Shown: positions 29,443-59,684 of the stretch, piece after piece | Numbering within the stretch: position 1 is the first letter of the stretch | How the letters are laid out: every line of letters begins with the position of its first letter | From: Pedobacter punctiformis | GTDB taxonomy: Bacteria > Bacteroidota > Bacteroidia > Sphingobacteriales > Sphingobacteriaceae | Reading direction: 5' to 3' | NCBI RefSeq assembly: GCF_027213715.1 | Contig: NZ_JAPWGM010000002.1 | Coordinates: 372,001-436,000 of the forward strand | DNA: 64,000 nt | The notes under the pieces: generated by a model | What the model was told of the DNA's origin: nothing | Databases searched by the model: none | What the model saw: the letters and a program-made list of their open reading frames with translations, nothing else | Program-made: the position numbers and the translations under genes

Positions 29443-29460
29443 TATTTAAAATAAAGATTT

Positions 29461-29800
29461 GGAAATGGATAGATTGCAGTTTTTGGCTAATGCGGTCCCA
29501 CTCCCGGTTTCTGTCCCGATGGAAAGATCGGTACATTCATTCAGATTTGGGGTTTAGAAACAGAGTTTCTCTTCTCCACGTCATTGCGAGCCATGAAGCA
29601 ATCTCAAAGCGTTTGTTTTAAACTAACTACAGTTGCAAAATTGCTTCGTGTCTCGCAATGACGATAGTTTTAAGTATTTTGTACTACCCCATGCTATTTA
29701 AATGCAATTGGAAGCAGCATCCCCCGATTTTTCTTCGGGGATATAGCGGAAAGCGGGATTAATATTCAAAAGAAAACCAAGCCTGGCTTTACAAAAAGAC
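29461..29800 (+). repeat. Dispersed structured intergenic repeat, copy 1 (with nested palindrome)
   Basis: A ~340-base copy of an element also found at 39118-39376 and 52661-52910. Shared landmarks: 5' TCCCGgTTTC (29502-29511) that pairs with 3' GAAAGCGGGA (29749-29758); a CCGAT/ATCGG hairpin near 29515-29530; GGGTTTAGAAAC; GTTTTAAGTATTTTGTACTA; CCCCCGATTT-TTCGGGGATATAGCG (29721-29747) as a 3' hairpin; and the end AAGCCTGGCTTT. It fills most of the 475-base gap between convergent sigma and response-regulator genes. A second palindrome is inserted at 29579-29663. Confidence 0.8.
29579..29663. repeat. Nested palindromic repeat (GTCATTGCGAG type)
   Basis: Perfect 12-base arms: CGTCATTGCGAG (29579-29590) and CTCGCAATGACG (29652-29663). 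Inner arms GAAGCAAT (29595-29602) and ATTGCTTC (29640-29647) also pair. It lies in the large loop of repeat copy 1. Deleted derivatives occur at 39207-39242 and a half copy at 59506. Confidence 0.85.
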
Positions 29801-29880
29801 TTGATAAAATCATCAAACACTTTCGGCTACTTGTCCTGGTTTGTATCAGAAAGTTCAACGTAATTTACTTATGAAAAAGA

Positions 29881-29911
29881 AAACCCCGGAGATTAGAAAT
29901 CTTCGGGGTTT
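29881..29911 (-). terminator. Terminator of the response regulator gene
   Basis: A 14-bp stem with one G-T wobble (AAACCCCGGAGATT at 29881-29894 with AATCTTCGGGGTTT at 29898-29911) around AGA. On the minus strand it is followed by TTTTCTTTTTC. Confidence 0.85.
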
Positions 29912-39055: not shown

Positions 39056-39117
39056 GTTTTGGCTGTAAATCAATCTTAAAATCCATCATTTTATAATGCA
39101 GTGTAGCACATTTAAAT

Positions 39118-39376
39118 AACAACAGCCCTCCTCCTGTTCCTATAAGATGAAAACTGAAACATCTCGCTCAGAATACAGGTTTAGAAACGATGTTATCAGT
39201 TAATAACGTCATTGCGGGGTAAGAAGCAATCTGGCAATGACGATGGTTTTAAGTATTTTGTACTATCCGGCGTTATTTAAACCTGATTGAAGCATCATCT
39301 CCCGATTTTTCATCGGGGATACAGCGGAAAGCAGGAACAATTTTCATAAACAGCACAGGATTTGCTTTCCAAAAAC
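39118..39376 (+). repeat. Dispersed structured intergenic repeat, copy 2
   Basis: About 259 bases related to copies 1 and 3. 5' TCCTG (39132-39136) can pair with 3' CAGGA (39332-39336); CAGGTTTA (39176-39183) pairs with TAAACCTG (39278-39285); 3' hairpin CCCGATTTTTCATCGGG. Compared with copy 3, both stems carry a G-to-A change matched by C-to-T on the other side. A shortened nested palindrome lies at 39207-39242, at the same place as in copy 1. It fills most of the 430-base gap between thrS and the acyltransferase gene. Confidence 0.78.
39207..39242. repeat. Deleted nested palindrome in repeat copy 2
   Basis: CGTCATTGC (39207-39215) and GCAATGACG (39234-39242) are perfect arms; between them GGGGTAAGAAGCAATCTG corresponds to the left inner arm of the copy-1 palindrome, with the right inner arm lost. 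Confidence 0.75.
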
Positions 39377-39382
39377 AAAAGC

Positions 39383-40471
39383 CTAGGCTTTGATCATCTT
39401 TGTTTTTAAATACTTTCGCAATGGTACATCAATAAACTTCATAACCAGATAAGCCACAACAATTAAAAGGATTACGGAAACCGGAATTATAACCTCCAGT
39501 AATGACATTTTAGGTTTAACTACTGCAACATAAGTTAAAAATATCCACACGAAAGGATAATGCGTCATGTAAAGCGGGTAGGAAATTTCGCCTGACAGTT
39601 TACATATCTTTTTGAATGAAGTAGTAAGTGTAGCACCTGCGCCCAAAGCAACCAGAAGTGGAAAATAAAACAACACCATTATTGATTCTGTTAACCAGTT
39701 CCATTGATCAGAAAAAGGCACTAAAAAGGCAAGAACTAACAAAATGCTGACCCCTATAAATCCTAATTTATTTTTGATGATCCAGTTAGAGCGATAAACC
39801 AGCATGCCTGCTAAAAAGGAATAGAAAACCCTGGCACCACCATCCCAAAAATTTGGCCCGCCCCAACCGCCACTTAAATTAGTGGAATGAACAGCAACAT
39901 AACAGATTAATACTGCTGCAACTACCGTTAATACAATCAGTATTTTCTTATTGAGTTTATACAGGATAAAAATGTAAAAAATGTTGGCTATATATTCCCA
40001 AAATAATGACCAGCTGGGTGCATTTAAGCAAAAAAGGTTTAGGTAACGCTCAGGCATAACCGGATAGGGAATTAAAAAGGCAGAGGCTAAGAACATCATC
40101 AGTGTTTTACCAAGACCATAAACAGTATAAAAGTCACTGTAAGGATCGAAAAGAAAGGTTAATAAGCCAAGCACTGAACCAATAACAACCAGCGGATGCA
40201 AACGAATGAGCCTTAGTTTAAAAAACTGCATAACACCTATCCCTTCTGCCCGGTTATCGTAAGCGTATGCAATTACAAAGCCTGATAAACAAAAAAAGAA
40301 ATCGACGGCCAGATAACCGTGTGCAATAAAATTTTTGCTGTAATCGGTAATTGCAATTTCCATAAAATGAAAAATTACAACGGCTATGGCTGCAACACCT
40401 CTTAATCCATCTAAAATTTCAAAATGTTGTTTCGTCTTTAATAAATCTACGTTAGTTTCTTTCGTAATCAC
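39383..40471 (-). CDS. Acyltransferase 3 family membrane protein
   Basis: Membrane protein of 362 residues with about ten hydrophobic segments, matching the acyltransferase 3 (OafA/NodX-like) family. Motifs: LDGLRGVAAIAVVIFHF near the N-terminus with the conserved R and H, and FFFCLSGFVIAYAYDNR (helix 2). It probably O-acylates a surface or secreted polysaccharide. The start is GTG at 40471, as the next ATG falls after the first conserved motif. It stands alone, with the structured repeat just beyond its stop codon. Confidence 0.87.
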   Translation of the reverse strand: MITKETNVDLLKTKQHFEILDGLRGVAAIAVVIFHFMEIAITDYSKNFIAHGYLAVDFFFCLSGFVIAYAYDNRAEGIGVMQFFKLRLIRLHPLVVIGSVLGLLTFLFDPYSDFYTVYGLGKTLMMFLASAFLIPYPVMPERYLNLFCLNAPSWSLFWEYIANIFYIFILYKLNKKILIVLTVVAAVLICYVAVHSTNLSGGWGGPNFWDGGARVFYSFLAGMLVYRSNWIIKNKLGFIGVSILLVLAFLVPFSDQWNWLTESIMVLFYFPLLVALGAGATLTTSFKKICKLSGEISYPLYMTHYPFVWIFLTYVAVVKPKMSLLEVIIPVSVILLIVVAYLVMKFIDVPLRKYLKTKMIKA

Positions 40472-52550: not shown

Positions 52551-52620
52551 ATATGGAAATGGGCAACTATAGCCTCGTTTCTGATGAAAAATCTGAATAG
52601 CTCATTCTGCTTTCCAAATC
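52551..52620 (+). repeat. Degraded copy of the structured repeat (copy 4)
   Basis: ATGGAAATGGGCAACTATAGCC, then TCGTTTCTGATGAAAAATC and CTGCTTTCCAAATC match the two ends of copy 3 with the middle missing. It lies immediately upstream of copy 3 and ends in the same 24-base sequence as copy 3 does. Confidence 0.65.
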
Positions 52621-52631
52621 ATTTTAATCTG
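52608..52631 (+). repeat. Direct repeat, left unit
   Basis: A 24-base sequence beginning TGCTTTCCAAATC and ending TTAATCTG, identical to 52897-52920. The next ~18 bases are also similar in both places (AAATTAATTG versus AAATCAATTG). It marks the 3' end of the degraded and full repeat copies. Confidence 0.9.
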
Positions 52632-52660
52632 TAAATTAATTGACATTTATATCCTTCGTA

Positions 52661-52910
52661 CTCTGGAAATGAACAGGCAGCAACATTTACGAAACTACAG
52701 CCCCGCTCCCGTTTCTGTTCCAATGAAAAATCGGAACATTTCACTCCGATCGGGTTTAGAAACAATGTCACTTTACGACATTTTGTCCATTACTTGCACG
52801 ATCCGATTTTATAAACCCGATTGCAGCGGCATCCCCCGATTCTTTTCGGGGATATAGCGCAAAGCGGGAACAAACTTATATAAAAACTACAGCCTATGCT
52901 TTCCAAATCA
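52661..52910 (+). repeat. Dispersed structured intergenic repeat, copy 3 (best preserved)
   Basis: About 250 bases, the most intact copy. Pairings: TCCCGTTT (52707-52714) with AAAGCGGGA (52861-52869), one bulge; GTTCC (52717-52721) with GGAAC (52733-52737); ATCGGGTTTA (52749-52758) with TAAACCCGAT (52812-52821), perfect; and a 3' hairpin CCCCGATTCTTTTCGGGG near 52833-52851. The nested palindrome seen in copies 1 and 2 is absent. A 62-codon open frame inside it (52669-52857) is judged accidental. Confidence 0.82.
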
Positions 52911-52920
52911 TTTTAATCTG
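52897..52920 (+). repeat. Direct repeat, right unit
   Basis: Identical 24-base sequence to 52608-52631, at the 3' end of copy 3. The pair spans 289 bases unit to unit. Confidence 0.9.
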
Positions 52921-52951
52921 CAAATCAATTGGTGTTTATTAGGAAAGGAGT

Positions 52952-59487: not shown

Positions 59488-59505
59488 ATTTTACAACAAA
59501 ACTTT

Positions 59506-59530
59506 CGTCATTGCGGGGTACGAAGTATTC
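59506..59530 (+). repeat. Half copy of the GTCATTGCG palindrome
   Basis: CGTCATTGCGGGGTACGAAG matches the left arm of the palindromes nested in repeat copies 1 and 2 (CGTCATTGCGGGGTAAGAAG in copy 2). No right arm follows. It lies just downstream of ruvB; the remainder of the 197-base gap shows nothing else that I recognise. Confidence 0.6.
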
Positions 59531-59684
59531 ATTTTCAAACCATTGATTAACGGATCACTTCTCACCTCACAACGGCAACTTGTACACAACTGCATGCCAT
59601 TTATCTTCATAAAACTGGCACTATAAGCCATTTCTACAAACATTTTGGTATCTTTTTCGTTCAATAAAGTATAAACAAATTATA

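Follow-up and report, generated by a model that had tools for sequence, protein, structure and literature searches.

The element and its copies

The window analysed here is a stretch of 64,000 nucleotides of Pedobacter punctiformis (G000:C8:372001-436000). Three of its gaps between genes hold the same element, in one orientation and with shared landmarks, as the sequence-only reading of this DNA had described. Copy 1 is flanked by the convergent ORF ends 29442+ and 29918-, copy 3 by 52505+ and 52952-, which agrees with the earlier statement that two copies lie between convergent gene ends; copy 2 is flanked by two minus-strand genes. The three repeats are thus real, but their limits had been drawn too narrowly: the model places them at 29445-29808, about 39110-39386 and 52649-52920. 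No match to a coding or insertion sequence was seen. Just past copy 1, at 29881-29911, lies an intrinsic terminator-like hairpin of the ordinary type.

The 3' third of the element is Flavo-1 (RF01705), a family that had been suggested for comparison. Copies 2 and 3 pass its gathering cut-off of 42 bits; copy 1 does not (Table 1). When 29 Flavo-1 arms of this genome were aligned, the conserved sequence extended about 35 nt beyond the Rfam model, up to an outer end TTGCTTTCCAAAT; the foot of the arm consensus reads TTTAAACC...CRGGA. A covariance model of 119 positions built from the 3' arms of this genome only, here called R1, also matches copies 1 and 3 on the minus strand, at their 5' arms. 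Since a model of the 3' arm finds the 5' arm on the opposite strand, the element is an inverted doublet of one arm of about 110 nt around a variable spacer. The 5' arm can indeed pair with the 3' arm, as had been noted; it is, however, not a unique 5' domain but a copy of the 3' arm that is inverted and has diverged. The 5' arm of copy 2 gives no match in the R1 search; at the orthologous site of the sister species G090 it is intact (L210 1302-1418, 46.3 bits). Read by eye, full copies have ATTWGGAAA at their 5' outer end, the complement of the 3' end, and the element is thus bounded by an approximate 9-bp inverted repeat, ATTWGGAAA...TTTCCWAAT. Single arms are frequent among the copies.

At their centre, copies 1 and 2 contain a second, unrelated palindrome family, the CGTC-tagged REPs. 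In copy 1 they form an inverted repeat (29579-29602/29640-29663) with 92% complementarity. A third palindrome of this kind (CGTCATTGCGAG...) is found in the window outside the spacers, at 59505-59531. In G090, the spacer at the copy 2 site carries other palindromes, not CGTC REPs.

Table 1. Parts of the three copies and adjoining repeats, in window coordinates
Feature	Position	Strand	Evidence or remark
Copy 1, 5' arm (inverted arm copy)	29445-29565	-	R1 match, 29.7 bits, E 0.0026
Copy 1, spacer: nested palindrome CGTCATTGCGAG...CTCGCAATGACG, CGTC-tagged REP pair	29578-29663	.	Inverted repeat
Copy 1, 3' arm	29690-29808	+	R1, 86.3 bits
Copy 1, Flavo-1 core	29696-29764		RF01705, 25.7 bits, below gathering score
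Copy 2, decayed 5' arm	39110-39190	-	By-eye landmarks CCTCCTGTTCC...ACAGGTTTAGAAAC
Copy 2, spacer: nested CGTC-REP remnant	39206-39245	.	Repeat family D6
Copy 2, 3' arm	39269-39386	+	R1, 106.3 bits
Copy 2, Flavo-1	39275-39342		RF01705, 46.7 bits
Left direct repeat beside copy 3	52608-52650	+	43 nt, 88% identical to 52897-52939
Copy 3, 5' arm (inverted arm copy)	52649-52767	-	R1, 48.1 bits, E 1.1e-7
Copy 3, 3' arm	52803-52920	+	R1, 112.4 bits
Copy 3, Flavo-1	52809-52875		RF01705, 50.9 bits
Right direct repeat beside copy 3	52897-52939	+

Arrangement of the arms in the genome

Further copies, for which the sequence-only reading had proposed a search, are plentiful. The genome contains 39 Flavo-1 matches, 14 control genomes contain none, and the matches are far more frequent than expected by chance. 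With R1, at least 97 arms are found among the best 150 candidates scored; by ORF calls, the arms are nearly all intergenic.

Among these at least 97 arms, 29 neighbouring pairs lie within 400 bp of each other, as against about 1.2 expected, and all 29 pairs listed are inverted, none direct (p = 3.7e-9). Eighteen have their heads together (-+, with spacers of 8-87 nt) and 11 their tails (+-). Among the 57 close pairs in 88 loci, most of which belong to congeners, 51 are inverted. Six are direct, none of them ++, and the arms of every direct (--) pair stand at least 148 nt apart, which leaves room for one missed arm. Doublets also build tandem arrays, in this genome (L040, with a unit of 262 bp), in G090 and in G041. 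A hint from contig C8 that orientation follows replication was abandoned, since in the complete genome G041 each replichore contains arms of either orientation.

A subfamily reading GCATGAGGGATAG...ATAGCCC (L002, L045-L050, L063, L077, L180) adjoins lpd in three genomes and forms arrays at one other conserved site. Considered as a conserved variant, GCATGAGGGATAG... turned out to be a low-copy subfamily at a few sites.

Presence and absence

At the gap of copy 3, 30 loci of the genus were compared. The gap is empty in nine congeners, measuring 19-82 bp without arms (L143, L148, L145, L159, L141, L146, L168, L163, L156); the remaining loci contain single arms or other palindromes, except for the sister species G090, where 817 bp hold three tandem doublets. 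Because of these three tandem copies, the direct repeats around copy 3 are read as probable leftovers of a tandem array that is still present in G090. A palindrome AAACCTATCAGGTTTT-GAAACCTGATAGGTTT fills the gap in several congeners (L145, L146, L163, L168 and others). In four others (L150, L152, L164, L167) the gap houses a small gene pair, which in L164 matches DUF433 and DUF5615.

Copy 1 is missing in G090. The flanks there are 84-87% identical, and the flanking gap is too diverged to define an insertion site. More generally, the flanks of the element have diverged by 10-20% even in the nearest genomes, and a target duplication is therefore not demonstrable. The differences between sister species imply that copies were gained or lost at these sites.

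The distribution is a mosaic one. Flavo-1 occurs in 38 of 60 sampled congeners, mostly with 13-65 copies, and 22 have none. Over the phylum it is found in 28 of 198 genomes and in 17 of 102 genera; the copies sampled in a Flavobacterium-like genus have the look of compact single hairpins, not of doublets. Carriage of copy 3 by plasmids or phages was considered and dropped, a search against both having yielded no match at E 0.01.

Folding: RNA or DNA?

Covariation had been named as a decisive point, and it is strong. In the alignment of the 29 arms, 12 of 15 consensus pairs show compensatory changes. Of the pair cells examined, 95% are paired; the covariation value of 0.661, compared with 0.184 in shuffles, was reached by none of 500 shuffles. 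Such pairing support applies to any palindrome that is kept as such. The closed multi-branch fold proposed earlier survives as one of two possible pairings, but the arms also fold singly, and it is in the single-arm fold that the covariation is seen. On either strand, copy 3 gives a better fold than shuffled sequences do.

G-T cells are rare (41 of 1957, or 2.1%) and not above A-C cells (54), the latter being mostly confined to three columns of a conserved C-A mismatch. Once these columns are removed, 25 G-T cells face 7 A-C cells, and a folded single strand may thus matter, be it of DNA or of RNA. In a small control of six tRNAs, 17 of 132 pairs were G-T and none was A-C. The most conserved letters of the arm sit in internal loops, a placement that would be suitable for a protein-binding RNA as well.

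Could Flavo-1 then be a genuine structured RNA, an sRNA or a 3'-UTR element, that is multicopy by chance? The covariation, the conserved loop letters and the excess of G-T outside the three columns are in line with this, Rfam lists RF01705 under the type sRNA, and in Flavobacterium psychrophilum several 5' transcribed regions overlap Flavo-1 (PMC9723704). The same RNA-seq study, however, reports Flavo-1 hits on the sense or the antisense strand of transcripts, with many others lying beyond them, and does not support a consistent transcript (PMC9723704). Against an RNA also stand the inverted doublets and alternating arrays, the lack of any fixed relation to the gene strand, the absence of copies from orthologous sites and the low content of wobble pairs. 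A dedicated Flavo-1 sRNA is unlikely, the RNA-seq data of F. psychrophilum, a species of another genus, arguing against it, and we consider the structured RNA as a whole improbable.

Position relative to genes

Of 35 arm settings, 24 are convergent (69%), 8 tandem and 3 divergent, as against 39 convergent, 148 tandem and 41 divergent ones among 228 background gaps. The convergent excess is significant by gap count (p = 2e-11) and by gap length (p = 8e-8), in a test that is only approximate because the background, taken from the window and G041 with simple ORF calls, includes gaps with elements.

This preference, together with the folding of copy 3 on either strand, would be accounted for by static DNA or termination elements, such as cruciforms, sites for gyrase or nucleoid proteins, or bidirectional terminators, that are kept for their function between convergent genes. 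Against this, the element is lacking at the same position in many sister species, and Flavo-1 altogether in 22 of 60 congeners. Moreover, a terminator scan of the arms detected few terminator-like sites, and beyond copy 1 there is an ordinary terminator distinct from it. To a static role we give a low probability.

At one contig end, a long-hairpin variant of Flavo-1 directly follows a 5S rRNA gene (L021, G000:C12:458-556). Two loci are similar (L015, L035), and near-identical flanks are seen at two other contig ends; the sequences suggest that this variant follows several rRNA operons.

In search of a mobilising enzyme

A gene family recurring beside the arms was sought in the compared loci and none was found except at orthologous loci; a recurrent neighbouring gene was therefore discarded as the mobiliser. 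Equally unrewarding was the search for an autonomous parent between distant inverted arms: at C12:145-148 kb there are ordinary genes, and the gap of a 1.2-kb inverted pair at 4.01 Mb of G041, which was examined closely, contains no long ORF.

In size (250-340 bp), in its inverted arms with the short inverted ends and in its presence or absence at orthologous sites, the element resembles a MITE, the arms being long terminal inverted repeats that a DDE transposase would cut on double-stranded DNA. Against this stand the lack of a recurrent ORF between or beside arms in the compared loci, including the 1.2-kb pair, the many single arms and the conserved hairpins within the arms, which are unusual for DDE ends; also, the comparison with flanks diverged by 10-20% provides no demonstrated target duplication. 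A MITE is hardly a likely answer.

The least probable of the alternatives is that the elements are true REPs mobilised by the RAYT (Y1) transposases of the genus, which co-occur with them there but show neither adjacency nor a phylum-wide association. Among 60 congeners, 35 have both Flavo-1 and a Y1 gene, 20 have neither and 5 are discordant (3 + 2; Fisher p = 8e-11). The genomes devoid of Flavo-1 are mostly the more distant ones, as judged by the identity of a neighbouring gene, and the association within the genus may therefore be a clade effect. Arms are not enriched beside 40 Y1 genes (11 in 158 kb, or 0.70 per 10 kb, compared with 23 in 300 kb, or 0.77 per 10 kb, in the control). The Y1 genes inspected carry other palindromes, e.g., GGCTAAAGCC, and the arm consensus has no GTAG/CGTC foot. 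Over the phylum the association is not significant (24/28 vs 121/170, p = 0.17), and two genomes, G108 and G227, contain about 20 copies each and no Y1 gene. The only Y1 transposase gene found in the present genome, L042 (G000:C1:532993-533334), lies between TTGGCTAAAGCCAA palindromes and in this way resembles a REPtron, though one with another repeat.

Relation to known systems

The sequence-only reading had left the choice between a structured RNA, a mobile element and a cruciform. Doublets, alternation, arrays, presence or absence at orthologous sites, mosaic distribution and RNA-seq data without consistent expression favour mobile DNA. Probably, though with room for doubt, we are dealing with a dispersed DNA repeat of the REPIN/BIME type that is non-autonomous and would be mobilised in trans. 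Its two arms of about 110 nt face each other across a variable spacer and terminate in the approximate 9-bp inverted repeat, and each can form an imperfect hairpin with conserved letters in its internal loops. An enzyme acting in trans would recognise the folded arm in single-stranded DNA and thereby spread the element; copies would persist where they are harmless, at the 3' ends of genes, and arrays may grow through local tandem duplication. Flavo-1 of Rfam would then be one arm of a DNA element and no independent small RNA.

How does this fit with what is known? The 3' arm has the same sequence and hairpin as Flavo-1 (Weinberg et al. 2010, PMC2864571), but RF01705 covers 76 nt of a single arm, modelled as an sRNA, whereas the arm here is some 35 nt longer and half of an inverted doublet. 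In architecture the element resembles REPINs and BIMEs (Bertels and Rainey 2011, PMC3116915), with palindromic units between genes that pair in inverted orientation, form alternating arrays, also occur as single arms that look like remnants, and have a mosaic distribution. Like REPs and REPINs, the element is high-copy, extragenic, palindromic and arranged in inverted doublets. A REP arm, however, comprises 20-40 (up to 65) nt. Its foot bears the tag GTAG/GTGG or CGTC, which is absent from the consensus foot of the element, and a RAYT gene is flanked by its own repeats, whereas no Y1 gene was found flanked by the arms described here; lacking these two defining features, the element is not classed with the REPs. 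The CGTC-tagged REPs (Di Nocera et al. 2013, PMC3733652), which are nested in copies 1 and 2, are likewise high-copy palindromes without a dedicated transposase, and their mobiliser is unknown in the literature (PMC3733652); they differ in their unrelated sequence, stems of 8-9 bp and the CGTC tag. With MITEs the element shares shortness, the lack of genes and terminal inverted repeats (inverted arms, and short ends seen by eye), but no parent was found in the compared loci and each arm has an internal hairpin.

A bolder version deserves mention, tentative and on balance doubtful as it is: the Flavo-1 doublets of Bacteroidota might form a class of their own, mobile DNA of a single-strand-hairpin type, with a foot unrelated to that of REPs and moved by an enzyme not yet linked to such elements, and RF01705 would be a transposon end.

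For Rfam, the consequence is that RF01705 represents, in this genus, one arm of a DNA doublet. Matches to RF01705 are annotated as small RNAs in Bacteroidota genomes, which would be misleading should they prove to be the arms of mobile DNA doublets. Screens for RNAs that rely on covariation only would then have a demonstrable failure mode, palindromic DNA repeats, and the folded arm would offer a defined bait for finding the mobilising enzyme.
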